From a virus: a stretch of 51,193 bases of DNA. The translations under genes and the position numbers were made by a program. The notes under the pieces are model-generated. The model worked only from the letters and a program-made list of their open reading frames with translations. It was not told the DNA's origin and ran no database searches. Position 1 is the stretch's first letter. Each line of letters starts with the position of its first letter. The stretch covers positions 1 through 51,193 of the IMG/VR virus record IMGVR_UViG_3300035670_000303; one strand, given 5' to 3'. Positions 1,493 to 47,142 of the stretch are shown piece by piece.

Positions 1493-1765
1493 GTGGCTGA
1501 CGCCAACCTGCGAGAGCTCTACGACCGCGGGCACAAGGCCGTGGTCGAGCAGCTGGTCGAAAAGATCGAGAACGGCGATGCAGACGATGGCGACCTGCGG
1601 CTGTTCGCCCAGCTGATGAAGCAGAACAACATCAGCGCCGCACCGATCGAAGGCACCGCCACCGAGGCGATGGCCAGGATGGCCGCCAAGCTCCACACCT
1701 TCGGGGCACTGGAGGAGAAGGCGAAGGTGGTGCCGATCCGCCCGGCACCGCCGGCTAGCGCTTGA
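1493..1765 (+). CDS. terminase small subunit (T7 gp18-like)
   Basis: 90 residues from GTG 1493, matching the 89-residue T7 gp18. The start at 1463 would translate through the regulatory palindrome and is less likely. The protein is helical and acidic (LRELYDRGHKAVVEQLVEKI, then DADDGDLRLFAQLMKQNNISAAP) and ends in a Pro/Ala tail. It would bind phage DNA and direct the large subunit during packaging. It lies next to the large terminase, but on the opposite strand, and their 3' ends overlap by 11 nt. T7 encodes both on one strand. Assignment rests on length, context and a loose resemblance. Confidence 0.65.
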   Translation: MADANLRELYDRGHKAVVEQLVEKIENGDADDGDLRLFAQLMKQNNISAAPIEGTATEAMARMAAKLHTFGALEEKAKVVPIRPAPPASA

Positions 1766-3518
1766 CGCCGCCCACCGCGCCGCTGGCCTTCGGGATGATC
1801 CCCAGGGCCAGTGCATCGAGCTTCGCGCCGGTCTCATCGAACCAAGCCGCCAGGGAGGCCTCCACCAGCTCCTCCTGGCGCCGCTGGGCCACGCGCAGCT
1901 GGTCCTGGGCCGCGGCCTCCACGAAGTGGGCTGCAGCGATCGCCAGGGCGTCGATCCGGTCGTCGTAGAGCAGGCTGCCCCTGTCGGTGGTAATCCGGCT
2001 CAGCTGGAACATCAGCGAGCGTGGGTGGCCGGTGTCCGCATCCCGCTCGGCACCTTCCCAGTCCTTCTGGATCAGCTCGCTGTTCACCACCAGCCGGTGC
2101 TGCTGCACCAGGGGCGCGAGCACGTCAATGATCCGCCGCTCCTTCTGCCCAGCTGACCGTGGGGCCTCCTCGATCGAGCAGGGGTAGATGCGCTGCATCA
2201 CCGGCTGCAGGATCTTGCTGAACATGCCATCGCCGAAGTTCGGCTCAGGGATGACGGCATTGACCTGCCAGCGCTTGGCGATGCCCGCCAGCAGCTCCAG
2301 CACGTCGTCCTCATACCCCCGGGTGGTGCCGCCGCTCTCGAGCACAAACAGGTTGCCGCTGAGCTCGGCCACCACCGCCCAGGACAGTTCATCACTGCCG
2401 CGGCCAGAGGGGTCGATCGCCAGCACGCTGCGCCACTTCTCCGACCTGGGCAGCCAGCCCTGCACCATCATCGGCCGGTGGTAGTAGCGGTCAGCACCCA
2501 GACCCACGCAAGGCAGTTCGTTGATCCGCTGCTCTGCGCCGGATGCCCAGCTGATCACCTCCGGCAGCGCCTTGCCATCCAGCGGCATCACGATCAGGTC
2601 GCCCAGCCGGATCGGGAACTTGTCGAGGGTGCTCAGCCGGCAGTTGAGCATGTACTGCAGCTGCCAGCTGGCCTTGGTGCTGCCGGTCTCCCGCTGGATC
2701 AGCTCGGTGTCGTCAAACCGCTCCGGGTCGGTTGGGCCGCCCACCAGCTGCGGGTTGGTCTCGATCTCCTCCACCATGAGGGGGTCGAGGCAGCCGTCGT
2801 AGACATCGAAGGTGTCCGGCTTGGGGTAGCGGGCCGGCCACATCCGCATCTTGTACCCGCGCTCGCGCACCAGCCGCCAGTACATCGACGTTTCCAGGTG
2901 CGGTGTGCCGCGGAAGCTGATCTGCCGTGGCAGCGGCTGGCCGGCATCCGGCAACAGGATCGACTCGAACTCGGTGGTGGCCGCCCACAACCGCTCCTGC
3001 TTGAGCGGCGTGATCGAGTTGGTGAGGGTCTCGATGTCGTCGGGAATGATCATCGTGGCCCGCTTGCCGGTCAGCGACGGGCTGAGGATCCCGCACGCCC
3101 GCACCGATGGCGCACCATCGCCGCCGATGATCGCCGGGCCCACGTCGAACGCCAGGACGGACTGCCGCTGGTTCTCCTTGGGCTGGAGGCACTGCAGCAG
3201 GTCGATCTCCCGGATGCACCGGGCCATGAAGGTGGTGATCTCCTCGGCCTTGGTTTCGGTGGCGCCAGGAATCAGGATCTTCTCGCCCTCAGGGTCAATC
3301 CGCAGCCGGTGCAATGCCCGGGCGCCGCTGATGGTGGATTTGGCGATGCCACGAAAGCCAACCGTCACCGTGCGGTTGGGGCCCACCTCGTCCCATTCAC
3401 AGATGCGCAGCTGCTGCTTGGTGGGTTCATCCGCTAGACCCAGCTCGCGGAGGATGTAGCAGAAGAAGTAGGCGAACCGGCCGATGCCCAGTTCAGGTGG
3501 GATGGGGTAGACGCTCAT
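1755..3518 (-). CDS. terminase large subunit (T7 gp19-like packaging ATPase/nuclease)
   Basis: 587 residues, almost the length of T7 gp19 (586). The N-terminal ATPase has a Walker A-type loop GFRGIAKST at residues 54-62 and a Walker B-like segment TMIIPDDIE. The C-terminal nuclease domain shows VLAIDPSGRGSDELSW and LLYDDRIDALAIAA, which supply the acidic metal ligands. The enzyme pumps DNA into the prohead through the connector and cuts concatemers. It is the last gene of a minus-strand cluster that starts at the RepL-like regulator, and its ATG overlaps a tiny upstream ORF. Having terL on the strand opposite to terS and the virion genes is unusual for T7-like phages. Confidence 0.92.
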   Translation of the reverse strand: MSVYPIPPELGIGRFAYFFCYILRELGLADEPTKQQLRICEWDEVGPNRTVTVGFRGIAKSTISGARALHRLRIDPEGEKILIPGATETKAEEITTFMARCIREIDLLQCLQPKENQRQSVLAFDVGPAIIGGDGAPSVRACGILSPSLTGKRATMIIPDDIETLTNSITPLKQERLWAATTEFESILLPDAGQPLPRQISFRGTPHLETSMYWRLVRERGYKMRMWPARYPKPDTFDVYDGCLDPLMVEEIETNPQLVGGPTDPERFDDTELIQRETGSTKASWQLQYMLNCRLSTLDKFPIRLGDLIVMPLDGKALPEVISWASGAEQRINELPCVGLGADRYYHRPMMVQGWLPRSEKWRSVLAIDPSGRGSDELSWAVVAELSGNLFVLESGGTTRGYEDDVLELLAGIAKRWQVNAVIPEPNFGDGMFSKILQPVMQRIYPCSIEEAPRSAGQKERRIIDVLAPLVQQHRLVVNSELIQKDWEGAERDADTGHPRSLMFQLSRITTDRGSLLYDDRIDALAIAAAHFVEAAAQDQLRVAQRRQEELVEASLAAWFDETGAKLDALALGIIPKASGAVGGVKR

Positions 3519-3997: not shown

Positions 3998-4393
3998 CTA
4001 CTCCGGGTCGCGGACGACATCCAGGGCTTCATCGAACTGCTGGAACAGGTGGCCGCGGCGTTGCGGGCTGCCCACTGAGGCCAGGCGGGGGTTGATGAGG
4101 AAGTAGCGGCTGCCGGAGGACTTGTCCACGGCGCGGGCGATCAGCTTCTCCTGTCGCAGCCGTCTGATGGACAGGCAGATGTTTGAGCTGGAGACGTTGA
4201 TCTGCTCGGCCAGGGCCTTCTGGGTGACGTTGACGCGACCGCTGCGCCAGTTCATGTGACCGAGAAGGATCAGCAGGACGGCCAGGTCACGGGGCTCCAG
4301 CCGCTTGTCGGCCAGGGCGCCTGCTGCAGCGGAGACGAGTTCTTCGACAAACAGCATGACGAAGTTTTCCGAGCCATTTTCTCTGGGCTTCAT
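3998..4393 (-). CDS. winged-helix protein, RepL/replication-initiator-like or repressor
   Basis: 131 residues from ATG 4393; a GTG at 4444 would extend it through an operator-like site and is less likely. The middle is a clear helix-turn-helix (VTQKALAEQINVSSSNICLSI) followed by a wing and the phrase SRYFLINPRLA, which resembles RepL-type plasmid initiators and related phage regulators. It could act as a lysogeny regulator, a replication initiator, or both. The site at 4436-4461 lies 43 nt upstream, suggesting autoregulation. It heads a leftward cluster ending in terL and is divergent from the early operon. Confidence 0.6.
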   Translation of the reverse strand: MKPRENGSENFVMLFVEELVSAAAGALADKRLEPRDLAVLLILLGHMNWRSGRVNVTQKALAEQINVSSSNICLSIRRLRQEKLIARAVDKSSGSRYFLINPRLASVGSPQRRGHLFQQFDEALDVVRDPE

Positions 4394-4435
4394 TGTGAGG
4401 CGCGAATGGTGGGAGAAAGCAAGGTTCCCGCTAGT

Positions 4436-4461
4436 AGGTGACACCTAGGCGATCCCTAGGG
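4436..4461. promoter_or_regulatory. CCTAGG operator-like site upstream of the RepL-like gene
   Basis: AGGTGACACCTAGG at 4436-4449 contains the inverted repeat AGGTG-A-CACCT. A second palindrome CCCTAGGG follows at 4454-4461. Near-identical sites occur at 9047-9060 (AGGTATCACCTAGG) and 13071-13084 (AGGTATTGCCTAGG), the first with the same preceding TAGT. Probably the binding site of one of the phage regulators. Confidence 0.55.
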
Positions 4462-4903
4462 AATAACGAACTCAGCAGTGGTACAAATGTTCAGCCCAGT
4501 CATACCAAGGGATCTGCTCTCGATAAAGTGAATGTCGATTTACTTTAGCCCCCAAGCACCCCAGTCCACCACTGACGATCCGAGATTCAGTCTGATCTCT
4601 TACTGGAGACCCAAAGCAGATTCACAACCCGGGGGAAAGAAGGGGGAAAGAAGGACAGAGGGCCACTCCCACCACGCTGCCTCCCACCCCACCTCCAGCC
4701 GGGCTGCCACCCTGCCACGACCACACCACCATCGCCACCCACGCCCGCCTTCCGGTGGGGTGGCACCACCTCCCTGGTATCTCCGCACCCCAGCGGACCC
4801 GCAGCCGCCTTCCTGGGCCGCCTGGCCCCCTCCTGTGCATCGCTGCAGACCACCCGCCCCCGGGTTGATCGCTGCAGATCCGGCGTCATCCGGCCCAGAC
4901 CGT

Positions 4904-7236: not shown

Positions 7237-8187
7237 ATGACCAAGACCGCAACCAAGACCAAGCCCAAGACCCGCAAGCCCTACGACGGGCCCACCCCAG
7301 AGGAGAAGCTGGCCGCCGATCTCATCGCCCTGATGGAGCAGGGCATCAACCCATGGCGCCGGCCCTGGGTTGGCTTCAACGGCGAGCACCGCAACCTTCT
7401 GACCGGCCACCAGTACCGCGGGGGCAATCCGCTCCTGTTGGAGGTCGGCAACCTCAGCCGGGGCAACACGCTGCCCCTGTGGATGGGTGCCGGCCAGGCC
7501 AAGGCCAACGGCTGGATGCCAGCCAAGGGCAGCAAGGCCGCCCGCATCGCTCAGCCGCGGCCCGTGAAGTTCGAGGACCCCGACAAGGAGCCCGGCGAGA
7601 TCAGCAGCAGGGACAAAAACTTCATCGTCTATGGGCTGGTGCCCGTGTTCAATGCCGCCGACCTGGTGGGCGTTGACGAGGACAGCGCCGCGGCCCTGGC
7701 CCGCCGCATCGACGAGGCGACCGGGAAGGTCGATCACCGGCCCGAGCCAGAGCGTCTCGCGCACGCCGAGGACGTGTTGCAGGCCTGGCCCGTGGAGGCC
7801 CGCACCGGCGGCACCCTGGCCTGTTACAGCCCGGCGCTGGATCGAATCTCCCTGCCCGAGCCGCGGGCGTTCGACAGCCGCGAGCACTTCGCCGCGACCT
7901 GGGCCCATGAAGCGATCCACAGCACCGGCCATAGGGACCGGCTGGCCCGCGACCTGTCGGGCAAGTTCGGCACACCCGCCTACGCCCGGGAGGAGCTTAT
8001 TGCCGAAATGGGCAGCGCGATTCTCTGCCGCCGGCTGCAGATCGGCTCAGAGCTCAAGGACCATGCCGACTACCTGGGCGGCTGGTGTCAGATCCTGCGC
8101 GAGGACCCGCGGGCTGTGCTCAAGGCCCTGGGCGCTGCCAAGAAGGCCGCCGATCTGATTGCCCCCGAAGCGATCGAGGAGGCGTGA
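7237..8187 (+). CDS. ArdC-like antirestriction protein (ssDNA-binding N-domain plus zincin metallopeptidase)
   Basis: 316 residues. The N-terminal domain (about 18-150) has the ArdC-type phrases LMEQGINPWRRPWVG and NLLTGHQYRGGN, linked to single-stranded DNA binding. The C-terminal zincin-like domain has an HExxH motif near residue 225 (WAHEAIHSTGH) and a downstream Glu (EELIAEMGS). ArdC homologues on plasmids and phages protect incoming DNA from restriction, which would suit an early phage gene. It is expressed from leader cassette copy 2 without an obvious Shine-Dalgarno sequence. A role in ssDNA handling is also possible. Confidence 0.8.
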   Translation: MTKTATKTKPKTRKPYDGPTPEEKLAADLIALMEQGINPWRRPWVGFNGEHRNLLTGHQYRGGNPLLLEVGNLSRGNTLPLWMGAGQAKANGWMPAKGSKAARIAQPRPVKFEDPDKEPGEISSRDKNFIVYGLVPVFNAADLVGVDEDSAAALARRIDEATGKVDHRPEPERLAHAEDVLQAWPVEARTGGTLACYSPALDRISLPEPRAFDSREHFAATWAHEAIHSTGHRDRLARDLSGKFGTPAYAREELIAEMGSAILCRRLQIGSELKDHADYLGGWCQILREDPRAVLKALGAAKKAADLIAPEAIEEA

Positions 8188-9063: not shown

Positions 9064-9381
9064 GTGGATCTCCGTTCACTGGCCTTGGCTTTAGGCACTT
9101 TTGCCACCCAAGACCCGACCCGTTTCCCGCTGCACCACGCCCGGCTGTTCCTTGAAGTCGCTCTAAACGAGCCGACCACCTTCGAGCACCTAGAGCAGGC
9201 CCTCAACCTGACCAACTCCAGCGTGTCCCGATCGGTCTCAGCCCTCAGCGATCGAAACCGCCACGGCGACCGCGGCTACCGGCTGCTCACCGTGGAACGC
9301 GACCCCGAGGAGGGGCGTCGCTTCCTGGTCCGCCTGAGCCCTAAAGGCCGGCTGCTGCTCCAGCAGCTGCAGCGGATCTGA
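9064..9381 (+). CDS. winged-helix (MarR-like) regulator next to the integrase
   Basis: 105 residues from GTG 9064. The recognition region LEQALNLTNSSVSRSVSALS and the wing (GYRLLTVERDPEEGRRFLVRLSPKG) are typical of MarR-type domains that use a single-domain form. Placed 34 nt before the integrase and directly behind an operator-like site, it is a good candidate for an autoregulated integration or lysogeny switch. Confidence 0.65.
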   Translation: MDLRSLALALGTFATQDPTRFPLHHARLFLEVALNEPTTFEHLEQALNLTNSSVSRSVSALSDRNRHGDRGYRLLTVERDPEEGRRFLVRLSPKGRLLLQQLQRI

Positions 9382-9415: not shown

Positions 9416-10402
9416 ATGACCGGATCAGTTCGCCGCACGGCGGACGGCTGGATTGCCGATGTCTGCATCAACGGCACCCGCCGCACCGCCAAACGCAAGA
9501 CCAAGACCCAGGCCATCGAGGCCAAGCGCCAGCTGCTCGAGCTCCTGGTGGCCCGCAGCAAAGGCGAGCCGGACGGCATCACCATCACCGATGCCCGGGC
9601 CCTCTCCCTGCGCATCCGCTGGGCTGGCAAGGCCTTCGAGCGGACTGCGGCCATCTACAGCCAGGCCGCCGTAGATCACTTCGGCCCGCTCACCCAGCTG
9701 GGCAGCATCACTGCGCCAGCCGTGGAGGAGTGGCGGCAGCTGCTGCTGCGCGGCGGCAACCGCCCAGGGACCGTAAACGCCAAGGTGAGCTGCCTGCGGG
9801 CCATGTTCGGCGATGCCGTGCTCCATGGGCACCTGGCTGCAATCCCGCCGCTGCCCAGGCAGCTGACGAACCGCAACGTCAAGGACCGCACCTTCTCCGA
9901 TGCTGAGATCGCAGCGTTCTGCGATCGGTTCCATGCCGCAGGCCAACCCGCCGCGGCCGACCTTTTCATCTTCCTGCTGGAGACCTGCTGCAGGTGGGGC
10001 GAGGCCGAGCGGCTGCGTGGGGCTGATGTGGATGTGGAGCGCCAAAGGGTCACCTTCTGGGAGACCAAAGCCAACCGGGCCCGCAGCGTGCCGCTCACCC
10101 GCCGCGGCCTGGATGCCCTGCTCCCCCATCTGCCGGCCGTGCCGGGCCATCGGGTCTACCCCTACAGCTACAGGCAGTTCAAGTGGCTGTTCGAGTGCGC
10201 CAAGGAGGGGCTGGGCATCACCGACCCGGCCCTAACGATCCACTGCACCCGCCACACCTGCGCGAGCAAGCTGGCGACCAAGGGGATCCCGCTCCACCAG
10301 CTGATGGCCTTCGGCGGCTGGACCTCACTCCAGAGCGTGCAGCGCTACCTGCACCTGCACACCGATGCCCTGGCGTCCTGCGTGGCAGCGCTTGAGGCCT
10401 GA
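9416..10402 (+). CDS. int: tyrosine recombinase integrase
   Basis: 328 residues. The N-terminus is an arm/core-binding region (GSVRRTADGWIADVCINGTRR and a helical SAM-like domain). The catalytic domain shows Arg193 (CCRWGEAERLR), the HxxR pair His276/Arg279 in IHCTRHTCASK, a GGW motif, and the nucleophile Tyr311 in QRYLHL. It would integrate phage DNA at a host attachment site. Candidate attP sequence lies immediately downstream, before the RNA polymerase gene, as in cyanophage P-SSP7. The start is preceded by a long CACC tract instead of a Shine-Dalgarno sequence. The catalytic set looks complete. Confidence 0.92.
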   Translation: MTGSVRRTADGWIADVCINGTRRTAKRKTKTQAIEAKRQLLELLVARSKGEPDGITITDARALSLRIRWAGKAFERTAAIYSQAAVDHFGPLTQLGSITAPAVEEWRQLLLRGGNRPGTVNAKVSCLRAMFGDAVLHGHLAAIPPLPRQLTNRNVKDRTFSDAEIAAFCDRFHAAGQPAAADLFIFLLETCCRWGEAERLRGADVDVERQRVTFWETKANRARSVPLTRRGLDALLPHLPAVPGHRVYPYSYRQFKWLFECAKEGLGITDPALTIHCTRHTCASKLATKGIPLHQLMAFGGWTSLQSVQRYLHLHTDALASCVAALEA

Positions 10403-10519: not shown

Positions 10520-10566
10520 GTCTAGCTATCTGGTGAAAGCAGCGGACTCATAATCCGTTTTCCAGT
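10520..10566 (+). other. tRNA-like sequence with CAU anticodon arm; candidate attP core
   Basis: Positions 10542-10558 form a 5-bp anticodon stem (one G-T pair) around the seven-base loop CTCATAA, with CAT at 10549-10551. A D-arm-like TAGCTATCTGGTGAAAGCA precedes it. No matching acceptor or complete T arm is found, so it is a tRNA fragment rather than a working tRNA. Such fragments beside an integrase are typical attP cores that rebuild the host tRNA (here Met or Ile2 type) on integration. Confidence 0.6.
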
Positions 10567-10670: not shown

Positions 10671-13070
10671 TTGCCTGCATCCTGCAATTCCTACACACCC
10701 TCGGAGGACCGCCAGCGGCATCTGGAATCGGCGGCTCAGGAGGCGGCAATCAACCGCTCGCGGATCGCCCGGGCCAAGCTCAAACAGCAGGAGAAGGAGA
10801 GCGCCACCGAATACGGCAGGGCCCTGTTCCATGCCCACGGCGAGCGGGTTGCGCTGGCGCTGGAGCACAAGCTGGGCAAGGCGCTGAACCGTGAAGAGTT
10901 GGCCGGCCCGTATCACGCCGGCATGTGGCTGCTGTTCCAGCTGGGCGACAAGGGGCCCCGCTCGATCGCTGCCGTCGCTCTGGGGGTGGTGCTCGATCGG
11001 ATCAGCAAGCCCACCAGCCACCGGGCCATGGCATCCGCCATCGGCAAGGCGATCGAGGCAGAGATCAGAGCGCTGCCGATCGAGGACCGGGGGCAGGATC
11101 TGTTGCGCATCGCCCGCCGGCGGCACGGGAAACAGCTGGCATCAAGGGCCCGGCTGGAGCAGCTGCGCATCCAGGTGGAGCCCTGGGCTGCTGCTGATCG
11201 CTTCCAGGTGGGCGCCTTCCTGCTGGAGATCATCACCACCGAAACCGAGCTCCTGCGAACGACGAAGCAGCCAGGGCGCCGCGGCCTGCAGCTGGTGCCG
11301 GCGCCCGTGGTGGCCGAGATCATCGCTGCCCATCCGCCCACGCCAGCCCGGGCCCGCCGGCTGCCGATGCTCACCCCGCCCAGGCCATGGGAGGGGATGA
11401 CCGGCGGCGGGCACCTCGACAACACCGAGCCCCTGGTGCGCAGCCGCAAAGGGCATCCGATCGACTACCTCACCACCGAGGCCCTGCAGCCGGCGCTGCA
11501 GGTGGTGAACACCCTGCAGGAGCAGGAGCTGCGGCTGGATCCATGGATGGTGGGCAACCAGCGCATTGCCTGGGATGCAAACTTGCGCGGCCTGTTCCCG
11601 ATCCTGCGCGATCCGATCGAGGCCCCGCCCAAACCCACCGAGCTGGTGGGCAAGGAGGCCATGGCCCGCTGGCATCAGCAGGAGCAGGCATTTCACCGGG
11701 ATCGGATCGAAGGCCGCCACGCCCGCAACCAGATCGAGAGCTCCATCCGCCAGGCCGAGCAGCTGGCCGGCGAGCAGCTGTGGTTCAGCTGGTGCATAGA
11801 CATGAGGGGCAGGGCGTACACCGCCAACCGGCTCACCACCCACCAGGGGCCCGACCATGAGAAGGCCCAGATCCTGATTGCCAACGCCAGGCCCTGCGAC
11901 GACCGCGCCGCCGACTGGATCCTCAAGGCTGCCGCGATCCACTGGGGCATGAAGGGCAGCTGGGTGGACCGGCTGCAGTTCGGGCGGGATCAGATCGAGC
12001 GGATGCTGGCCGCGGCCGAGGACCCGCTGGAGCGTGTCCATCTATGGCGTGATGCCAAGGAGCCGTGGCAGTTCCTGGCCTGCTGCCGGGCCATCCAGCA
12101 GTGGATCGAGGACCCCAGCCAGCCGATCCATCAGCCGGTGCGGCTGGATCAGACCAGCTCCGGCCCGGGCATCATCGGCGCGCTGCTGAGGGATCGCGGG
12201 CTGGCCCGGGCCTGCAACCTGATCGGCACCACCTGCCACGACCTCTACACCGAGCTGGCCCAGGAGGTGACGCTGCTGCTGCGCTCTGATCTGGAGGCCG
12301 GCGATGCCAAGGAGCAGCGGCACGCGGCCTGGTGGCTGGAGAAGGGCATCACGCGGGCCATGGCCAAGATCCCCGTCATGTCCACGGTCTACGGGGCGAA
12401 GCTGCTGGGTGTGACCGAGCAGCTGGTGGCCCTGCTCGATGAATCAGAGGGTGCGGTGTCCCTGGGCCGGCTGGAGCGCGAGCGGCTGCTGCCCTGCCGC
12501 TACCTGGCGCGGAAGTTCGGCCTGGCTGTTGGCGCCCGCCTGGGTGGCGCCGTGGCGTTCCAGGCCTGGCTGCGGGCCGTGGTGCGCTGCTGCAGCGCCA
12601 AGAACAAGCCGATGCAGTGGACAACACCGATGGGGCTGCCGATCCGGCTGGGCAAGGAGCTCACCGCCAGCAGCGGGGTGAAGTCGCTGCTGCATGGCAC
12701 CCGCCGCTGGCAGACGCTGCTGGATGCGCCGCCACCGGGGAAGCTCAGCGCCCTGGAGACCGGCCGGGCGATCACCGCCAACCTGATCCACTCCTTCGAC
12801 GCGGCCTTGGTGTGGGCGATGGTCTGCGATGGTGCAGATAAAGGCGTCACGGTGCTGCCCAACCACGACTGTTTCGCCGTCCCGCCCTGCGATGCCGAGT
12901 GGCTGCACAGCACGCTGCTGTGGCGCACTGGGGAGCTCTACCGGCCGGACTGGCTGGCCGAGATCACGGCCGAAATCCAGGCTACGGCTGGGGTGCAGCT
13001 GCCAACGCCGCCGATGGTGGGCACGCTGGAGGTGGGGGAGATCGGCAGGAACCCCTACCTGTTCTCCTAG
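10671..13070 (+). CDS. T7-like single-subunit RNA polymerase
   Basis: 799 residues if started at TTG 10671. The segment DRQRHLESAAQEA aligns with the T7 N-terminus, so the start should be near there, but it is not certain. T7 landmarks are present: PRPWEGMTGGGH; DMRGRAYTAN; catalytic Asp493 (LDQTSSG, T7 D537); GITRAMAKIPVMSTVYGAK with Arg562, Lys566 and Tyr574 (T7 R627, K631, Y639); and His732/Asp733 (NHDCF, T7 H811/D812). The C-terminus NPYLFS echoes the conserved aromatic end. It is ~80 residues shorter than T7 gp1, mainly in the N-terminal half. It should transcribe middle and late genes from phage promoters. Confidence 0.93.
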   Translation: MPASCNSYTPSEDRQRHLESAAQEAAINRSRIARAKLKQQEKESATEYGRALFHAHGERVALALEHKLGKALNREELAGPYHAGMWLLFQLGDKGPRSIAAVALGVVLDRISKPTSHRAMASAIGKAIEAEIRALPIEDRGQDLLRIARRRHGKQLASRARLEQLRIQVEPWAAADRFQVGAFLLEIITTETELLRTTKQPGRRGLQLVPAPVVAEIIAAHPPTPARARRLPMLTPPRPWEGMTGGGHLDNTEPLVRSRKGHPIDYLTTEALQPALQVVNTLQEQELRLDPWMVGNQRIAWDANLRGLFPILRDPIEAPPKPTELVGKEAMARWHQQEQAFHRDRIEGRHARNQIESSIRQAEQLAGEQLWFSWCIDMRGRAYTANRLTTHQGPDHEKAQILIANARPCDDRAADWILKAAAIHWGMKGSWVDRLQFGRDQIERMLAAAEDPLERVHLWRDAKEPWQFLACCRAIQQWIEDPSQPIHQPVRLDQTSSGPGIIGALLRDRGLARACNLIGTTCHDLYTELAQEVTLLLRSDLEAGDAKEQRHAAWWLEKGITRAMAKIPVMSTVYGAKLLGVTEQLVALLDESEGAVSLGRLERERLLPCRYLARKFGLAVGARLGGAVAFQAWLRAVVRCCSAKNKPMQWTTPMGLPIRLGKELTASSGVKSLLHGTRRWQTLLDAPPPGKLSALETGRAITANLIHSFDAALVWAMVCDGADKGVTVLPNHDCFAVPPCDAEWLHSTLLWRTGELYRPDWLAEITAEIQATAGVQLPTPPMVGTLEVGEIGRNPYLFS

Positions 13071-13095
13071 AGGTATTGCCTAGGTGGCTCCTAGG
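13071..13095. promoter_or_regulatory. CCTAGG operator-like site between RNA polymerase and SSB
   Basis: AGGTATTGCCTAGG (13071-13084) followed by CCTAGG at 13090-13095, the same two-part layout as the site at 4436-4461. Confidence 0.45.
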
Positions 13096-13115
13096 TGCCA
13101 TGCTGCTGCAGCAAC

Positions 13116-13131
13116 TCTGCATCCATGCAGC
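13116..13131. promoter_or_regulatory. TCTGCA-N4-TGCAGA-type element before the SSB gene
   Basis: Reads TCTGCA TCCA TGCAGC (11 of 12 consensus bases), 4 nt before the ATG at 13136. There is no room for a normal ribosome-binding site between element and start. Confidence 0.6.
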
Positions 13132-13135
13132 ACAA

Positions 13136-13780
13136 ATGCCGCGAGAACTGATTGTGACCCCAGTGGGCGAAGCCTGGTGGGCGAAAGTGTTTGAGCCTGA
13201 GGAGGATCGCTTCGAGGAGGACAAGCCTCGCCAGTGGTCGATCGAATGGGCTGGCCCGCAGAACAGCCGCGAGGTGCTGGGCCTCATGCAGGCCATCGAG
13301 GCCGAGTTCGCTCGCCTCAATGGCGATGGCGCCAAACCCAGCAAGAACGCCTGGCCGTTCAAGGAGCAGACCGACAAGGAAGGCAACCCCACCGGGCTGC
13401 TGGCGTTTCGGATGCGCAAGAACGAAACCACCAAGAAGGGCAAGGTGCTCCAGGCGCCGGCCATCTACGACAGCCACAAGAACCCATGGCCTGCCGACAC
13501 CCTGATCGGCAATGGCAGCAAGGTGAAGGTGGCGTTCAGCTGCTACGGCTGGGAGGACAAGTTCGGCAAGAAGGGCATCAGCCTCAGTCTTGAGGCGGTG
13601 CAGGTGCTGGATCTGGTGCCCTACGAGCAGCGCGATCCCGGCGATGCCTTCGGGGTGGAGAACGGCTATGTGGTGGACACCCCGGCCGATGCGTTTGGTG
13701 GTGGTGAGGAGCTCACCCCGAGCCAGCGACTGCAGCGCCAGGCCGCGCAGCAGCAGGTCGAGGAGGAGATCCCGTTCTGA
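13136..13780 (+). CDS. single-stranded DNA-binding protein (gp2.5-like role)
   Basis: 214 residues from ATG 13136. An OB-like core is followed by a low-complexity linker and the acidic-aromatic tip VEEEIPF, the classic end of SSB proteins that docks partner enzymes. The core resembles phage SSBs annotated near T7-like RNA polymerases (KVKVAFSCYGWEDKFGKKGISLSLEAVQV). It coats ssDNA during replication and recombination. It overlaps the RusA gene by one base. The tip is intact, so it could recruit host replication proteins. Confidence 0.75.
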   Translation: MPRELIVTPVGEAWWAKVFEPEEDRFEEDKPRQWSIEWAGPQNSREVLGLMQAIEAEFARLNGDGAKPSKNAWPFKEQTDKEGNPTGLLAFRMRKNETTKKGKVLQAPAIYDSHKNPWPADTLIGNGSKVKVAFSCYGWEDKFGKKGISLSLEAVQVLDLVPYEQRDPGDAFGVENGYVVDTPADAFGGGEELTPSQRLQRQAAQQQVEEEIPF

Positions 13781-14169
13781 TGACCGTGCGATCAGCTGAC
13801 TTTGAGCTGCCGCTGCCGCTTCAACCCAAGGAGCGGCCGCGCTTCTCTGGCCATGCTTACAACAGCAAGAAGTACCGGGACTGGATGCAGCAATGCCGAG
13901 CAATTCTCGGCGAGTGGTGGACAATCCCGCCGCTTGATAAGGGTCAGCTGCTCGCTGTTCAGTTCTATTTCCGGGGGCCTGGCACCAGTGATCTCGACAA
14001 TCTCTGCGGTGCAGTGATGGATGCCGGCAAGGGCATTCTCTGGGTCGATGACCGGGTGACGATTCTCAAAAGGATCGAAGCCGAGTGGGAGCAGGCTCCC
14101 AAGAAACAACAATCCATCATTCTCAAGGTGATCTGGGATGAACAATCACGGCTATCCACCGCTGGCTGA
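13780..14169 (+). CDS. rusA: RusA-like Holliday-junction resolvase
   Basis: 129 residues, the usual RusA length. The diagnostic acidic segment SDLDNLCGAVMDAGKGILW-VDD gives the DxDN and later Asp residues that bind metal. The N-terminus (FELPLPLQPKERPRFSG) also fits. RusA dimers cut four-way junctions. T7 uses gp3 endonuclease I for this task, so RusA appears to be a replacement from the temperate-phage pool. Coupled to the SSB gene. Confidence 0.88.
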   Translation: MTVRSADFELPLPLQPKERPRFSGHAYNSKKYRDWMQQCRAILGEWWTIPPLDKGQLLAVQFYFRGPGTSDLDNLCGAVMDAGKGILWVDDRVTILKRIEAEWEQAPKKQQSIILKVIWDEQSRLSTAG

Positions 14170-14362
14170 GCAGGAGTGCGGCAACTGCCGCTACAGCCGT
14201 GCCACCAAAAGAACCGACGACGTGCTCAGTTGCCGGCGTGATTCGCCCAAGCTGACTGATCTCAAGCACTCCGACGACGACAAGACCTCATGGGGCTGGT
14301 GGCCGGCTGTCTGCCCTGACTTCTGGTGCGGCGAGTGGGCGCCGCAGGAGGTGACTCGATGA
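14138..14362 (+). CDS. small zinc-ribbon-like protein
   Basis: 74 residues, overlapping rusA by 32 nt. Cysteines in [29 protein letters not shown] suggest a zinc-binding fold; the C-terminal [14 protein letters not shown] phrase is typical of small conserved phage proteins of unknown role. The stop overlaps the next ATG. Confidence 0.55.
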
Positions 14363-14928
14363 GGTGCCCCCGCTGCGACCACGACCGCACCAAGGTCGAA
14401 GAAACTCGGCCGCGAGAGGAAGGCGACCTGCGGTATCGCCGCTGCCTCAAATGCGCAGAGCGCTTCACCACCATGGAGCGGGTGTGCGTCAACGACCCAG
14501 GCGCGGCCGGGTATCTCGACGCACATCCCCTGCGGGTGGTGCCGGAACCCCAGCAACCCGCCAAGGCCCCTGCCAAGGCCGCCCGCGCCGCCCGGTTCAT
14601 GCCGGACGAGGTGCCCGACGACTTCGGCATCACCGCCGAGGCTGCACCGCTGCTGCTGCAGTGGTGGCGCGAAAGCCGCCGCAGCAAGCACGGCAGCAAG
14701 GCCACCTGGACTGAGGCCGCCTGGTTGGGCAGTGTTGCCCGGGTGGGCCGGCTCCCCGCCGCCAAGCAGGTCGAGCTCTGCACCGCTGGAGTGGAGAACG
14801 GCTGGCAGTCGCTGCGCGAGGAGTACCTGGGCAGCCACAAGCCGCTCGGCCTGCCGCAGATGGGCCGCCGCCCCATGCCCAAGGACCCCGCCATGCTCGC
14901 CGCGCTGGAGGAGCCATGGCCGGCCTGA
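14359..14928 (+). CDS. NrdR-like zinc ribbon fused to a replisome-organiser-like C-terminus
   Basis: 189 residues. The N-terminus ([18 protein letters not shown] and [14 protein letters not shown]) is like the NrdR zinc ribbon. The C-terminal half ([14 protein letters not shown]...[14 protein letters not shown]...[13 protein letters not shown]) resembles the tail of phage replication initiator/organiser proteins that end in an NGWQ-type motif. I infer an origin-binding or loader-partner role. It is clearly not full NrdR because the ATP-cone is absent. It overlaps both neighbours. Confidence 0.55.
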
Positions 14929-15428
14929 CTGCCGAGACCTTCCTGGCGGTTGCCGAAATGGTGGCCGGGCACCTGCGGCTCAAGGAGGCCGATCGGTGGA
15001 GCCCCCATGTGTGCCGGCTCAAGCTGCACAGCTTCAAGGCTGAGTTCCCCGAGGTGAACGACCCGCAGCTGATGTGGGCCGCCGAGAGGTGGATCCAGTC
15101 CACCGACCCCCAGGCGTTCCATCGGTTCCCGATCTGGGCTGAGCTGATGGCGCCGCTGTACCGGACAGAGGGCGGGCTGGCGAATCGCAGCTGGGGCCCG
15201 AAGGAGGACCTGCCTAAGTTCGTGCAGTTCAAGCCGGCCCAACTGGCGCTGCTGCCCGAGCTGCCCGCCTCGATCCATGCCGCGCCCGACCCGGCTAATG
15301 CCGGCGCCTATGCACTGGTGCAGGGCAGCCAGCGGCCGGCGCTGCCGCCAGCTGACGAGGCCCAGGGCCTCACCGATGAGCAGTGGCAGGCCTATCTGGA
15401 GCGGGTGAAGGAGGAGGCGGCAGCATGA
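14916..15428 (+). CDS. putative helicase-loader-like protein
   Basis: 170 residues. The first ~90 residues ([20 protein letters not shown], then [21 protein letters not shown]) form a small helical domain with a general likeness to G39P-type loader N-domains; the rest is linker. It follows the NGWQ-type protein, the order seen for initiator/loader pairs in temperate phages. With no phage helicase visible, loading of the host DnaB helicase would make sense. The family assignment is tentative. Confidence 0.4.
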
Positions 15429-15673
15429 ACCCGAAATACACAGACAACTGCTGCTCATCCTGCGGTGGTCAAAGTCTGGAGGTGATTGAGTCAAGACAAA
15501 GAAAAGATTGGCGCCGCCGCCGGCATAGTTGCGTGCAGTGCGGGCACAGATGGACCACATACGAAATCAGCGCTGAGCGATTTGAGGAATACCGGGCCGC
15601 AAGCCATGCGCTAAGAGCAATTCTGGATTGCAATAGCGAATACCAGCAAAAGGAGGCCCCATGCAGCCCCTGA
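15425..15673 (+). CDS. second NrdR-like zinc-ribbon protein
   Basis: 82 residues. CCSSCGGQSLEVIESRQRKD and CVQCGHRWTTYEIS copy the NrdR zinc-ribbon layout (CxxC - basic stretch - CxxCxxRxTTxE) without an ATP-cone. ATGA-coupled to the upstream gene. Probably a small DNA-binding protein. Base composition is visibly less GC-rich than the neighbours (AAATACACAGAC, AAGACAAAGAAAAG), which hints at separate acquisition. Confidence 0.55.
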   Translation: MNPKYTDNCCSSCGGQSLEVIESRQRKDWRRRRHSCVQCGHRWTTYEISAERFEEYRAASHALRAILDCNSEYQQKEAPCSP

Positions 15674-15879
15674 TCAGCAGCGCTGCACTGCAGGGGATCC
15701 TCGAAAAGGGTCTGCTGCAGGGGTACTGGTCGATCGACCAGTTCAACAAGACCAGCAAGAAAGGCGAGCCGGTGTTGCCCACGCCTGGGTTCATCACCGA
15801 GCACCCGCAGTTCTTCGACCGGGCCCACCGCGACCTTGATGCCTACGCCCAGGGCGCGGGCAGGAGGGATTGGTTTTGA
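15661..15879 (+). CDS. hypothetical protein
   Basis: 72 residues from ATG 15661, with AGGAGG at 15650-15655 as Shine-Dalgarno. Starts MQPLISSAALQGILEKGLL, then KTSKKGEPVLPTPGFITEHP. No family recognised. Overlaps the gene before by 13 nt and the next by TTGA. Confidence 0.5.
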   Translation: MQPLISSAALQGILEKGLLQGYWSIDQFNKTSKKGEPVLPTPGFITEHPQFFDRAHRDLDAYAQGAGRRDWF

Positions 15880-16103
15880 GCTGGCCCACCGACTACGAGA
15901 TCGGCCAGCCGGTGCGCGTCCGCTACCAGGGCGGATGGCGCAGCGGCCAGGTGGTCTCCACCCGCACCCGCAGCTGCATGGTCCTGCTGGTGCGCGGCAG
16001 CAATCAACAGACCATCAACATCCACGATCCCCGCAACATTCAGCCATGCCCCCCAACAAAGACGACCGGCTCGATGTCGAACGATCAGCCGTCCTTCGGC
16101 TGA
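15876..16103 (+). CDS. small SH3/Tudor-like protein
   Basis: 75 residues from TTG 15876, which overlaps the previous stop and has GGAGGG 7 nt upstream. YEIGQPVRVRYQGGWRSGQVVSTRTRSC has the look of an SH3/KOW-like beta barrel that reads modified residues or RNA. The last ~20 residues overlap the next gene. Role unknown. Confidence 0.45.
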   Translation: MSWPTDYEIGQPVRVRYQGGWRSGQVVSTRTRSCMVLLVRGSNQQTINIHDPRNIQPCPPTKTTGSMSNDQPSFG

Positions 16104-16213
16104 GAAGTGATGCGCTGCAACGTGTGCAGCAATCAGGCGAGAGCTTTTCTGGCCGCTGGTGGGATGGCTACCTGCGGGCTATTGACCACATTCTCGAAAT
16201 GGAGAACGAATGA
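16046..16213 (+). CDS. hypothetical small protein
   Basis: 55 residues (MPPNKDDRLDVERSAVLRLR...), charged and helical. It begins inside the previous gene in another frame and its stop overlaps the next start (ATGA). No family recognised. Confidence 0.4.
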   Translation: MPPNKDDRLDVERSAVLRLRSDALQRVQQSGESFSGRWWDGYLRAIDHILEMENE

Positions 16214-16440
16214 TGGGCTGGAGTGAACCAAAGGTCTACGAGTTTGAGGGCCCGCAACCTGTCATCGGCCCCGGCGTCAGCCGCCCCAAGCCAACCGAAT
16301 CAGCCCGGCTGTTTCGGCTCCGGGTGAAGCTGCCCGGCAAACCCCAGATGACGGTCACGCTGCCAGCGCCCACCCGAGGCAAGGCGATCATGTACTGCAA
16401 GAACCGCTGGCCAGGCTGTGATGCGGAGGTGGTGGAGTGA
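16210..16440 (+). CDS. hypothetical protein
   Basis: 76 residues. The C-terminal half (FRLRVKLPGKPQMTVTLPAP then KAIMYCKNRWPGCDAEVVE) predicts a small beta-alpha unit resembling short conserved phage proteins. The stop overlaps the next GTG. No function assigned. Confidence 0.45.
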   Translation: MMGWSEPKVYEFEGPQPVIGPGVSRPKPTESARLFRLRVKLPGKPQMTVTLPAPTRGKAIMYCKNRWPGCDAEVVE

Positions 16441-16775
16441 GTACACCACACCGCGCCACACCTGAGCAGTGGGCCAATCAAGAACATTGGGCTAAATGCG
16501 ACGAGGACAGCGCCTGCCTGATTGATCTCCGCGCCCGCGTCGAGGCGCTGGAGGCTGCGGCCAACTTATCAGCCGGCCTTACAAGTTCCAACCATCCGGC
16601 CGCACCAGATAGTTCGCTGGTCAAGAGGGTGCATAGCTGCATCGTGGGCGAGCCACCGTGTGGCCGCATGCGGGCCCGCGCCGCAATCCGCGAGGTGGCG
16701 GCGGCTGCCAGGGGGCTCCGGTTCACGACCGCCAGGGCTCTGATCGACTGGCTGGAGCGGGAGGGATTGCGATGA
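16437..16775 (+). CDS. hypothetical protein
   Basis: 112 residues from GTG 16437. Helical N-terminus (PEQWANQEHWAKCDEDSACL, ARVEALEAAANLSAG), three later cysteines and a C-terminal helix (IREVAAAARGLRFTTARALI). Overlaps both neighbours by 4 nt. No family recognised. Confidence 0.45.
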   Translation: MSTPHRATPEQWANQEHWAKCDEDSACLIDLRARVEALEAAANLSAGLTSSNHPAAPDSSLVKRVHSCIVGEPPCGRMRARAAIREVAAAARGLRFTTARALIDWLEREGLR

Positions 16776-17008
16776 AGCTATCCACGCTTGATCTCGGCGG
16801 CGGCATGACTGCCAGCGCCCACCGTGGCGGCCCGTCCGGTCGCTACTTCGTTGGCTACTCCAAAGGTGTCAGCTGGCTGTTCTATGACATCGAATCGCTG
16901 CGCCGTTTTCTTCGCCTGCCACCTGGGACACCAAGCCGCCAGGCCTTTGATGAATGGGCGAACAGCCTTGAACCCGACGAGCCGACCACGAATGAAAGCT
17001 CTAATTGA
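16772..17008 (+). CDS. hypothetical protein
   Basis: 78 residues (MKLSTLDLGGGMTASAHRGG, then FVGYSKGVSWLFYDIESLRR). A mixed alpha/beta small protein that overlaps the exonuclease gene by 17 nt. No family recognised. Confidence 0.45.
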   Translation: MKLSTLDLGGGMTASAHRGGPSGRYFVGYSKGVSWLFYDIESLRRFLRLPPGTPSRQAFDEWANSLEPDEPTTNESSN

Positions 17009-17732
17009 CACCGAGGTCTATCTGTTCCGCGCTGCTGCAGCGTGCGAAATGGAAGCCGAGTGGGCCCCCGACGACTGGACCTACATCTGCCGCCACGGTG
17101 ACGCGCAGGCCCAGTTCCAAGACCAGATCGCAGAGCTGCTCGACCACCTGCAGGGTCTCCAGCCGGTGCTGGTGTTCTCCGCTGGTGTCAGCTTCCGCTA
17201 TGGCGTCTGGCCCAAGTACAAGGCCAACCGCAAGAAGTACCGCAAGCCCGCCGGCTACCGGCAGCTCAGGCAGTGGGTCGCCCAGGCCGCGCCATCCCGC
17301 GGCTGGCGGGTGGTCGAGCTGCCCGACATCGAAGGCGATGACGTGCTCGGCGTCCTCTACGAGGAAGGCGACGTGATCGTGTCGATCGACAAGGACATGC
17401 TCACCCTGCCCGGCCACCACCTGCGGGACGGGCAGATCATCGAGGTGTCCCGGCACAACGCGGACATGGCCTTCTACACCCAGGCCCTGGTCGGTGACAC
17501 CAGCGACAACTACCCCGGCTGCCCGGGCTGCGGTCCCGTCGCTGCAGAGAAGGCGCTGGCCGGGTGCTCAACTGAACGTGAAATGTGGGCTGCAGTTGTT
17601 GCCGCCTTCGGCAAGAAAGGTCTCGATGAGCGCTATGCCATCCAGCAAGCCCGCTGCGCTCGCATCCTCAGGCCCGGCGAATACGACCTGGACAGTCACA
17701 CTGTCCGCCTATGGGAGCCCCCGGTAGCCTAA
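16992..17732 (+). CDS. 5'-3' exonuclease (T7 gp6-like, FEN family)
   Basis: 246 residues from ATG 16992; T7 gp6 has 300. FEN-family acidic sites are visible: MKALIDTEVYLFRAA at the N-terminus, DIEGDDVLGVL, SIDKDMLTLPG, and the helix-hairpin-helix region GDTSDNYPGCPGCGPVAAEKAL. It removes RNA primers and resects ends, freeing nucleotides and enabling recombination. It closes the DNA-metabolism block just before the virion genes, as gene 6 does in T7. Confidence 0.9.
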   Translation: MKALIDTEVYLFRAAAACEMEAEWAPDDWTYICRHGDAQAQFQDQIAELLDHLQGLQPVLVFSAGVSFRYGVWPKYKANRKKYRKPAGYRQLRQWVAQAAPSRGWRVVELPDIEGDDVLGVLYEEGDVIVSIDKDMLTLPGHHLRDGQIIEVSRHNADMAFYTQALVGDTSDNYPGCPGCGPVAAEKALAGCSTEREMWAAVVAAFGKKGLDERYAIQQARCARILRPGEYDLDSHTVRLWEPPVA

Positions 17733-26137: not shown

Positions 26138-26955
26138 TGCCTCTGCCCCTGATGGGCCTATCCCTGGCAATGGGCGGCCTGAACGCAGGCCTGGGGATCC
26201 TTGGTGCTTCGCAGAAGCAAGCTGCCGCCGAGCAGGATTACGTCAACCAAAAGGCGTTCCAGAGCGCCAACCAGCAATTCGCCCAGTGGCAGGCGGGGTT
26301 CACCAAGCGCTACGCCGACGCCAATCAGCAGTACCAGTATTGGCAGTCCACGCTGGCCTACAACCAGCAGCGGGCCTATGTGAACAGCCTGCGCAACTTC
26401 GAGCTGAGCAAGGCAATCGCTCAGGCCGAAGTGGTCAGGCAGACGCGAGCCGCCGCTGGTGCTGACTTTGCCCTGCAGTCCGATGCGCTGAGCCAGCAGT
26501 TTGCCGAGGCCTCGATGGCTGATGCCGTGGCCTACCAGCAGTACCAGGTGGCGGCGCTCAAGGCGCGGGCGTCAGTGGCGGCCAGCGGGCAGGAAGGCAG
26601 CAGCATCGACCGGCTGATCAACGATTACGCCCGCCAGCAGGGCGACTACGCCACGATCCAGCAGATCAACGAGGGGCTGCGCAGCAGGCAGTACACGAGG
26701 GCGCAGACGGCCCAGGTGACCCAGTACCTGAGCCGATACAACAGCCAGCAGTTCTACGAGCAGCAGCCGTATCTGGAGCCGATGCGGCCCTTCCAGCCGC
26801 TGCCGACACTGCTTGCCCCGCCGGCGCCAACGATGACCGGGGCGGCGCCCAGTAGCGGCCCTGGCGTACTGGGTGGCCTGACCGGGCTGATGGGTGGCAT
26901 CAACGCTGGCATCAGCACCTACTCCACCCTCTCCAACATCGCAGCCGGTTCATGA
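26137..26955 (+). CDS. internal virion protein, T7 gp14-like
   Basis: 272 residues (T7 gp14: 196). A Gly-rich hydrophobic N-terminus (MGLSLAMGGLNAGLGILGAS), a long Gln/Ala-rich helix, a proline-rich linker (LPTLLAPPAPT) and a second Gly-rich hydrophobic end. gp14 forms the outer-membrane pore during DNA ejection, and the two hydrophobic ends suit that. Order and overlaps follow T7. Confidence 0.82.
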   Translation: MPLPLMGLSLAMGGLNAGLGILGASQKQAAAEQDYVNQKAFQSANQQFAQWQAGFTKRYADANQQYQYWQSTLAYNQQRAYVNSLRNFELSKAIAQAEVVRQTRAAAGADFALQSDALSQQFAEASMADAVAYQQYQVAALKARASVAASGQEGSSIDRLINDYARQQGDYATIQQINEGLRSRQYTRAQTAQVTQYLSRYNSQQFYEQQPYLEPMRPFQPLPTLLAPPAPTMTGAAPSSGPGVLGGLTGLMGGINAGISTYSTLSNIAAGS

Positions 26956-29816: not shown

Positions 29817-29819
29817 CCC

Positions 29820-34040: not shown

Positions 34041-34042
34041 CC

Positions 34043-37000: not shown

Positions 37001-37429
37001 CCGATCGACCTGCGCAGCCAGTTCGCCGGCTCCGGCGTGGTGGTGACCAAGGCGGGCGATTCGGCCACGATCGACCTGGGCCCGTTCCTCAGTAAGCACG
37101 TCAAGGGCAAGACGATCGTGGAGGCCTTCACCAGCCTGTTCAACGATCCGGTATACCAGCGGATGCAGGACCAGCCAGGCACCACCTCCGATCTGGAGGT
37201 GCGCGACATGCCGCCATCGCAGCGCCGGCAGCAGGCGGCATCGCGGATGATCCAGGGCATCTACGACCACTACTCCCTGCTCACCCTCGATCAGCTCAAC
37301 GCATCCGACACCCCGGCCGCCCAGGACTGGCGCCAGAAGCGCAGCGCCATCGCCGAGCAGCAGTTCACCCAGCAGACCGACCGGCTGCAGGACCTGATGG
37401 AGGCCCTGGGCCAGCCAGCGGCCAGATAG
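34043..37429 (+). CDS. large internal virion protein (gp16-type core protein, C-terminal part)
   Basis: 1128 residues, starting 2 nt after the previous stop. Helical N-terminus with a coiled coil (LQKLQEDNDRLRQELATSEA). Phrases such as PYWRAPFNQFLFDTRLTFGP and hydrophobic GGLLGLFAGLDMAGLI are like the C-terminal half of large phage ejection proteins that span the inner membrane. Together with the upstream gene it would do the work of T7 gp16 (1318 residues). A 1092-residue open frame on the other strand is a composition effect. Confidence 0.72.
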   Translation: MANNCNDYFDELQKLQEDNDRLRQELATSEAARKAGEAFLRTEVKKQWVFKMQDGSVRSLTDADIDRAYSDFANRLESNELNQIVQRGLGNRSKPVGSNGRFVNYRMLIDTANITDAEDWARLTEALVGTWKQMAPEDFRLVTEVWGRDRLMETVANAYKDYIDADAIATSLANNTAGFMNLAEKMTRLRFVSDMAKEGYLNTLDQIHQFMGSTSSKVPDGLKQRAWSSYKTALMAERHVAAAKRNTGQALRSLQTDFDRPEMFMPDMAEAAQTLGAKAADVKPDEHFAKVIQAIDNGDAEAIKQLRIAAVLDSIDPNVTLGKGWANTHMRFGNALVKDAQLTNFGSQVRANMLGTWLANTHGFAHQAFENVGNLTPNGTKFSREAFSEGLRVAWESAKYSHDGVRRAWRELAADAFFRGDAPFGGNLDTYGPRASNNDQLLAQVKGLLEEPYLPGGPLRPENWARTVHKIQAGARMLAFHWSGGRHEVLTPALRAMSATDSVLGYDAFLFKLKNDLEIKARRDGVQLGLFDQRSREEWVEKQLDNAFYQLAPTEENVLAFRRQHKLKGSDISDDEIRSIITADRARNTYGYPTLDTPEAQGAMDYSLRNRMQSAPEGGLPAAIDEAVMAARKHWAIDSLVPYWRAPFNQFLFDTRLTFGPLAETVEVIFGKNPTQEQIAKVQAGWVTTGGLLGLFAGLDMAGLIEGNGPLPPEARRAFLLEGRKPNSIAGIPYLGGLPILNTLFLWKDIKETFVSGNYSNFDQYNAFWGIAQVLTSQLIRQTGFGQMQRLIDALLDPENEMPRLVGWLGQGQLPFSGVMRDAQRLTGFGGADLYQDRDPLGEERYGLGEEDWQTKTERTLRGLAYGTIPLLGLPGGAPRKEQDFLGQPIQLEFGADWKEALKSRFHPRMWPRAYQRVYAELDAQGQLRLPLPLLTRRLEGVAMSAELQKEYNDTFGTVKGSIPLEARAELAGRKINVTFSFKKEIPIDLRSQFAGSGVVVTKAGDSATIDLGPFLSKHVKGKTIVEAFTSLFNDPVYQRMQDQPGTTSDLEVRDMPPSQRRQQAASRMIQGIYDHYSLLTLDQLNASDTPAAQDWRQKRSAIAEQQFTQQTDRLQDLMEALGQPAAR

Positions 37430-43996: not shown

Positions 43997-44262
43997 CCAG
44001 CCCCTATCTTCGCGCCGCCCAGAAGTTCCCAGCCCTCCGCCAGCAGGCCCAGGAACGCCTCAGCAAGCGCCCCGGCCACGCAGGCCGCCCAATCATCCCC
44101 GAGGTGGTAGAGGATCGCCCCGGCAAACCAGCAGCGCCCGGCAGGCAGCCCGAACCCGCACAGGATGCCGTGGTGGTGCGCCGCGCCAAGGACAGCAAAG
44201 GCCGGTTCAAGGCTGACGATCCGTCCACGCCCGAGGACGAGGCATGGGAAGAGCTGCCCTGA
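43993..44262 (+). CDS. hypothetical charged protein upstream of the holin-like gene
   Basis: 89 residues, Arg/Pro-rich with an acidic end (RAKDSKGRFKADDPSTPEDE). The phrase D-KGRF also occurs at the end of the protein at 426-674. Its 3' end overlaps the start of the small membrane gene by 19 nt. Role unknown. Confidence 0.5.
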   Translation: MTSPYLRAAQKFPALRQQAQERLSKRPGHAGRPIIPEVVEDRPGKPAAPGRQPEPAQDAVVVRRAKDSKGRFKADDPSTPEDEAWEELP

Positions 44263-44393: not shown

Positions 44394-44432
44394 AAACGCC
44401 GGTAAACTATAAACAACACCACCGATCACGCC

Positions 44433-46259: not shown

Positions 46260-46396
46260 TGTTCTCAATCCTGTTCATCGTCGCCTGTTGGATCCTCATC
46301 CCCTGGCTGGCGGCATCCACCACGATCCCCCTCCCGCTGTTCCTGCTGCTGATCCTGCCGGTGCTGGTGCTATTGGTTGACCGGATCCAGCCATAG
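46259..46396 (+). CDS. small membrane protein related in form to the holin-like genes
   Basis: 45 residues, nearly all hydrophobic (ILFIVACWILIPWLAASTTI, LPLFLLLILPVLVLLVDRIQP). It shares the two-segment layout and the IQ-P ending with the protein at 1-137. The ATG overlaps the stop of the lyase-like gene. Function unknown; holin-like. Confidence 0.5.
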   Translation: MFSILFIVACWILIPWLAASTTIPLPLFLLLILPVLVLLVDRIQP

Positions 46397-47130: not shown

Positions 47131-47142
47131 GTGAGCTCCATA

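Follow-up and report, generated by a model that had tools for sequence, protein, structure and literature searches.

A temperate-type T7-like cyanophage lineage with no detectable DNA polymerase or helicase gene and a candidate helicase-loading pair

How does a phage copy its DNA when it carries a T7-type RNA polymerase (RNAP) and a T7-type virion, and no gene resembling the T7 DNA polymerase (gp5) or primase-helicase (gp4)? This question is raised by the IMG/VR record IMGVR_UViG_3300035670_000303, 51,193 bp long and taken whole as the window analysed here, and in particular by its early gene block (10671-17732), which runs from the RNAP through a single-stranded DNA-binding protein (SSB), the resolvase RusA and a pair of proteins encoded at 14359 and 14916 to a gp6-type exonuclease. 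A sequence-only reading had proposed a hybrid, with T7-style transcription and virion and with replication by the host replisome. We consider the best explanation, and a probable one, to be that the window holds a complete temperate-type T7-like cyanophage, which has given up the T7 replisome and starts the host replisome by a phage initiator/loader pair. Transcription, recombination (SSB, RusA and exonuclease), packaging and virion are, going by the genes, T7-like and phage-encoded. The T7 genes and the absence of polymerase and helicase stand as proposed, and the loader function is the predicted part of the hybrid.

The missing polymerase and helicase

Six-frame searches were made for DNA_pol_A (PF00476), DNA_pol_B, DNA_pol3_alpha and DnaB_C (PF03796)/gp4, with T7 positive for DNA_pol_A and DnaB_C and with control genomes positive for all four families. 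The window gave no DNA polymerase of family A, B or C and no DnaB-type helicase or gp4-type primase-helicase, for which T7 and the sister phages S31-C1 and S37-C6 were positive. DNA_pol_A and DnaB_C were likewise absent from all 46 related virus records that carry the 14359 and/or the 14916 family (at least three of them closed), T7 being positive in both searches, and neither a family A polymerase nor a DnaB-type helicase was found in the isolate S-SRP02 (MW822601) or in MedDCM-OCT-S38-C3 (AP013548, uvMED group G9). The earlier statement that no gp5- or gp4-like gene is present is therefore upheld, in the closed genome, in 46 of 46 relatives and in S-SRP02. Closed genomes without DNA polymerase and primase-helicase support a lineage-wide trait, and, with no phage polymerase present, DNA synthesis would fall to the host replicase.

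S-SRP02 and S38-C3 have the early gene order of the window, with 47% and 36% identity to it in the RNAP, 44% in the protein encoded at 14359 and 61-64%, over the aligned part, in that encoded at 14916. Both the RNAP clade and the shared synteny (RNAP-SSB-RusA-NrdR-loader-exonuclease) place the window in this S-SRP02/G9 lineage. S-SRP02 is a cultured, lytically propagated isolate with a burst size of about 50, and its lineage was presented as new (PMC8790148). In that paper, the text of which does not contain the words primase and helicase, the 5'-3' exonuclease is named 'DNA polymerase I' and a 'DNA polymerase' gene was used in a tree (PMC8790148); the gene called 'DNA polymerase I' has exonuclease domains only. 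S-SRP02 also encodes, in a phage without DNA polymerase, a sliding-clamp-like protein (p014, 10903-11607 in locus L010; phrog_947, 2e-8, with a weak beta-clamp domain), which could either bring in host Pol III or drive it away. A tblastn search found relatives of it in three of the 80 loader loci described below (L027, L041 and L080) and no counterpart in the window.

T7-like cyanophages without a DNA polymerase have been described before. Cai et al. reported 18 T7-like cyanopodoviruses (MPP-C) that lack DNA polymerase and have a primase/helicase, and left undecided whether the enzyme that copies them is Pol I or Pol III of the host or one so far unrecognised (PMC9860041); we also found no family A polymerase in the MPP-C phage P-SCSP1b. 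Like the window, MPP-C (P-SCSP1u and relatives) have RNAP, SSB and exonuclease. They differ in keeping the gp4-type primase/helicase as a core gene and in an SSB ending in EEEF, and P-SCSP1b has no annotated integrase, whereas the window group has no helicase, has the 14359/14916 pair and carries an IPF-type SSB tip. LUZ100 is, like the window, a temperate T7-like phage with a MarR-integrase-RNAP lysogeny cassette and a T7 virion, but it is described with a DNA polymerase and a primase/helicase (PMC10134795), so that in temperate T7-like phages this cassette does not preclude a full T7 replisome.

Two proteins in place of the helicase, and an SSB tip of host type

Between RusA and the exonuclease, the sister phages S31-C1 (AP013547) and S37-C6 (AP013546), both of uvMED group G9, encode a gp4-like protein with Toprim and DnaB_C domains, which in S37-C6 is a phrog_239 primase/helicase (2e-108). 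These phages share with the window the order RNAP-SSB-RusA-slot-exonuclease, the MarR and integrase genes and the lack of family A, B and C polymerases, but differ in what fills the slot, since in the window, in S-SRP02, in S38-C3 and in 80 scanned loci the helicase is replaced by the 14359/14916 pair. The first member of the pair (14359-14928, plus strand; PF22811, 8e-10) is the proposed initiator half, or DnaB-recruiting partner. The NGWQ domain for which it had been named in the sequence-only reading occupies only the C-terminal half, and the N-terminus is an NrdR-type zinc ribbon. The second member (14916-15428, plus strand), the proposed helicase loader, is a protein of 170 amino acids (aa) from a new family with 80 homologues in the equivalent slot. 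A 14359-type gene lies directly upstream of the 14916-type gene in 79 of the 80 loci, the order RNAP-SSB-RusA-pair-exonuclease-portal is constant across them and none holds both a loader-like gene and a helicase, counts that cover related sequences and not independent events. A small NrdR-type ribbon also stands ahead of the helicase in S31-C1, and the ribbon may thus be an older part of the slot.

Among 201 cyanobacterial genomes, a profile search recovered two distant homologues of the 14916 protein (E 2.4e-8 and 1.5e-4 per genome), and hhalign profile comparison agrees on this distant homology (94.5%, 8e-8). Both directly follow a gene for an initiator-like protein of 338-415 aa, which looks like a winged-helix initiator; HTH and DUF1376 score weakly for it in one genome and not at all in the other. 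One contig also carries Erf-type annealing, PDDEXK exonuclease and integrase-like genes and the other an exonuclease-type gene nearby, and the T7-like genes looked for, including T7 RNAP, are absent beside both homologues. By analogy, the replication block of temperate phages copied by the host replisome is laid out in this way. This setting gives the loader role of the 14916 protein, a function suggested by position, co-occurrence and distant homology, its main independent support. In these stretches of prophage-type DNA (L293 4022-5784 and L294 8882-10381), the initiator-like gene and the distant homologue match no Pfam or PHROG family above the cut-off. A scan of viral contigs with the distant loader gave no match.

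The window SSB (about 13097-13780, plus strand; phrog_112, 3e-20) belongs to the gp2.5 family, yet it ends in EEEIPF, unlike T7 gp2.5 and 55 relatives, which end in acidic residues followed by F, mostly in ..DF. A tip of the form (D/E)x(I/V/M/L/A)PF is found in 66 of 73 SSBs from phages with the loader gene (in 24 of 30 clusters when grouped at 80% identity), these too being related sequences, and in none of the 55 T7 gp2.5 relatives. In its residues the tip is of the type seen in bacterial SSBs. The bacterial tip (DDDIPF in E. coli) docks host replication and repair proteins. Other SSBs compared end in DDDF (P-SSP7), EEEF (MPP-C) and, in the helicase-bearing G007, S31-C1 and S37-C6, in YNF, ACPF and TTED; since MPP-C and these three helicase-bearing phages are without the tip, it tracks the pair and not mere polymerase loss. 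T7 DNA polymerase is described as needing the C-terminal phenylalanine of gp2.5 in order to displace strands (Ghosh et al. 2009, in PMC9917605). With the window tip, host SSB-binding proteins could dock where T7 gp5 and gp4 otherwise would.

We hypothesize that the zinc-ribbon/NGWQ protein and the 170-aa protein would bring host DnaB to the phage origin and that, via DnaB, host DnaG and Pol III would reach it; the winged-helix protein encoded at 3998-4393 may mark this origin, and the SSB tip would tie phage single-stranded DNA to host proteins. The proposed logic is like that of lambda O/P and SPP1-type systems, in which the host's DnaB and Pol III are brought in by an initiator and a loader of the phage, but the pair differs from O/P in having no detectable sequence relation to lambda P and only weak O-like scores.

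The earlier comparison of the pair with temperate-type initiators and loaders gains from its constancy in the slot and from the distant homologue beside an initiator-like protein, and loses from the lack of any known-family match. The profile searches for known initiator or loader relatives failed to return one: for the 14359 protein, the PDB search gave mainly NrdR zinc ribbons and other zinc fingers, and for the 14916 protein it gave nothing. Several further points weigh against the proposal. The 170-aa family has no match in Pfam, PHROGs (all homologues) or PDB, and its comparison with lambda P gave an hhalign probability of 0.2%, a weak test with a P profile of near-identical sequences. 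The NGWQ half is only weakly like O-type initiators (phrog_678, at best 0.0018 among 44 homologues and 0.21 for the window), and homology between the NGWQ protein and the initiator-like protein found no support in hhalign. The relatedness of the counted SSBs belongs here as well. Binding of DnaB or of an origin by the pair is a prediction, and sequence alone could miss a very divergent polymerase in the unnamed open reading frames (ORFs) of the virion block.

Alternative routes of DNA synthesis and genome closure

The strongest of the competing explanations, which we nevertheless find unlikely, is that a polymerase of the host, either DNA polymerase I (which, like T7 gp5, is of family A) or another one, copies the phage after recombination-dependent or RNAP-primed initiation. 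The 14359 and 14916 proteins would then be regulators or recombination accessories, and host DnaB would arrive by PriA-type restart. RNAP, SSB, RusA and the gp6-type exonuclease do form a recombination-capable set, host-type SSB tips could equally serve PriA-type restart and host Pol I is among the three options raised for MPP-C (PMC9860041). However, Pol I is mainly a repair enzyme, as argued in the same study (PMC9860041), and active helicase loading fits better with a pair that fills the helicase slot, replaces the helicase and has a distant homologue adjoining an initiator-like protein.

A highly divergent DNA polymerase and/or helicase, unrecognised in an unnamed ORF, is an improbable alternative. 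It draws on three unnamed ORFs of 954, 1406 and 1128 aa (26952-37429), with weak or no family matches, and their existence overturns the earlier claim that 1-44256 contains no large unassigned ORF. Nevertheless, these ORFs lie within the internal-virion block, flanked by tail tubular B and the tail fibre, the site of the internal virion proteins in T7; the 1128-aa ORF has a homologue in S-SRP02, the last gene of the virion block there (24%, 6e-34), and none of the early ORFs is long enough to encode a polymerase. BLASTP of the virion-block ORFs against the proteins of P-SCSP1b gave no match.

Positions 1-127 of the window are an exact 127-bp repeat of 44257-44383. In the relative G004, the gene order runs uninterrupted across the corresponding junction, from the tail fibre and small tail genes through the counterpart of 205-429 to the M15 endolysin, the terminase and the counterpart of 3998-4393, the last three on the minus strand. 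The circular genome of the isolate S-SRP02 has a layout matching that of the window. The 127-bp closure, the G004 synteny across the junction and the S-SRP02 layout together indicate that 1-44256 is a complete circular (or circularly closed) phage genome. End overlaps also close relatives, of 127 bp in G004, G011 and G027 and of 123 bp in G045, and the recurrence of 127 bases in several assemblies is probably the trace of an assembler run with k = 127 at a closed circle.

The remainder of the record (44384-51193, plus strand) has no match in the relatives compared and encodes a tail tube (Phage_tube_2, 4e-20) and a tape measure (PhageMin_Tail, 8e-31); the record is a chimera, and this part belongs to another, siphovirus-type phage. 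Beyond the 127-bp repeat, the siphovirus part holds a 608-aa protein without assigned function, followed by the tail tube and the tape measure. The 127-bp stretch corresponds to the gene for a 48-aa membrane-type protein; either the stretch is common to both phages or the join is an artefact of assembly. An incomplete or chimeric assembly, with replication genes on sequence outside the window, is very improbable and was rejected, since the chimeric record and the start of the window within an open frame are outweighed by the 127-bp closure, by the synteny conserved across it and by the absence of replication genes from the closed relatives G004, G011 and G027 and from circular S-SRP02. As for the worry that a polymerase gene had been lost in assembly, the genome is closed and the trait is lineage-wide; with 0 of the 46 related records carrying such a gene, there is therefore no lost read.

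Gene content and meaning of the lineage

The gene at 3998-4393 (minus strand) adjoins the terminase, is conserved in relatives and encodes a small winged-helix protein, a possible origin-binding initiator or regulator. It had been called RepL-like; the winged helix stands but not the specific assignment, since RepL scores 17.2 bits against a cut-off of 20.3 (0.0036), and HTH_36 (7e-5), DnaD_N (0.006) and MarR give similar sub-cut-off scores. Its profile finds regulators of the MarR type and also, with a value of 0.011, 2vn2, a DnaD-type initiation protein, so that initiator and regulator both fit. A weak score with phrog_678 was also seen, and a 'split O-protein', with the winged helix as the N half and NGWQ as the C half of phrog_678, had suggestive scores too weak to claim; hhalign gave no support for a relation between the winged-helix protein and the initiator-like neighbour. 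Upstream of this gene, paired CCTAGG repeats (4434-4461), kept in four relatives and forming a perfect inverted repeat in S-SRP02, lie in an AT-richer gap (GC 0.49-0.53 at 4401-4600) and are a candidate operator or origin element. Close by, an apparently non-coding 37-bp stretch (4591-4627; TCTGATCTCTTACTGGAGACCCAAAGCAGATTCACAA) is near-identical in the window, L004, L005 and L007 amid diverging surroundings, and could be a promoter, packaging or origin element.

The window has some of the features of a temperate phage. A MarR-like regulator of the temperate T7-like cassette (9064-9381, plus strand), homologous to that of S-SRP02 and in the same place ahead of the integrase, is followed by a tyrosine integrase (9416-10402, plus strand; PF00589, 1.6e-19). 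Between integrase and RNAP lies an attP-like core of 38 bp (10520-10557, plus strand) similar to part of a tRNA with anticodon CAU (D arm and anticodon arm), where ARAGORN found no whole tRNA. This core is invariant in seven genomes, including L009, a contig of a Cyanobium metagenome-assembled genome and the most distant of the seven, in which the right flank diverges, as expected of an attP site. L009, L303 (a 44.8-kb contig), L304 and L295 hold relatives of this phage and come from cyanobacterial genome assemblies, in which the contigs are short or phage-sized and the phage DNA is either integrated or co-binned.

The RNAP (10671-13070, plus strand; PF00940, 2.4e-45; phrog_414, 2.9e-125) has intact catalytic residues, T7 D537/K631/Y639/D812 aligning with D493/K566/Y574/D733. 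The early block continues on the plus strand with RusA (13780-14169; PF05866, 7e-9), a small cysteine-rich, zinc-ribbon-like accessory protein seen as a reading frame (14138-14362; phrog_15838, 0.002), the pair, a second NrdR-type zinc-ribbon protein (15425-15673; PF22811, 2.5e-9) and the gp6-type 5'-3' exonuclease (16992-17732; phrog_107, 3e-55; PF02739). Pfam and PHROG matches confirmed RNAP, SSB, RusA, the two zinc-ribbon proteins and the exonuclease where the sequence-only reading had put them. In L304, a RuvC-like ORF (2524-3000) occupies the usual RusA position. The T7-type virion block (18703-44262, plus strand) comprises portal, scaffold, capsid, tail tubular A and B, internal virion proteins, tail fibre and further tail proteins. 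On the minus strand are an M15 peptidase endolysin (853-1506; PF08291, 1.7e-19) and a T7-type terminase large subunit (1755-3518; PF22530, 2.7e-33; 61% to S-SRP02). A single-subunit RNAP with its catalytic residues, together with T7 portal, capsid, tail and terminase, makes the phage Autographiviridae-like. An ArdC-type anti-restriction protein is encoded at 7237-8187 (PF18818, 1.7e-40; PF08401), and S38-C3 is likewise annotated with an antirestriction protein.

A recurring leader of about 20-80 bp, ending in ..CACCACCACCACCGACCGATGAC, directly precedes the start codons of successive early genes (5311, 5754, 5983, 6509, 7216 and 9385) and is possibly a translation/expression leader or a recombination linker; L004 and S-SRP02 have CACCACC runs resembling it in their early regions as well. 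A count of 14-mers for repeated phage-RNAP promoters yielded low-complexity repeats only.

The lack of a DNA polymerase alone was already known in a T7-like cyanophage (PMC9860041); in the open-licence papers searched, we found no account of a T7-like phage that has lost both polymerase and helicase, nor of the pair or the SSB tip. The lineage goes beyond the question posed by MPP-C, in that the helicase is gone too, and it offers concrete candidates, namely the two proteins encoded where the helicase would be and the SSB tip of host type, together with a cultured representative in S-SRP02, the published annotation of which is corrected here for the exonuclease labelled 'DNA polymerase I'. The arrangement is shared by dozens of related viruses, and a loader role of the 14916 protein would add a helicase-loader family new to Pfam and PHROGs. 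We give about even chances to a broader reading, in which a widespread aquatic T7-like lineage would have had its whole DNA-synthesis machine replaced by a new and unrelated DnaB-recruiting family, with an SSB re-tipped to mimic that of the host, and in which phage transcription would stand beside host replication in one virus, the gp4-keeping, gp5-less sisters recording an intermediate step. The findings suggest that the transcription system of a phage need not be coupled to its replication system.

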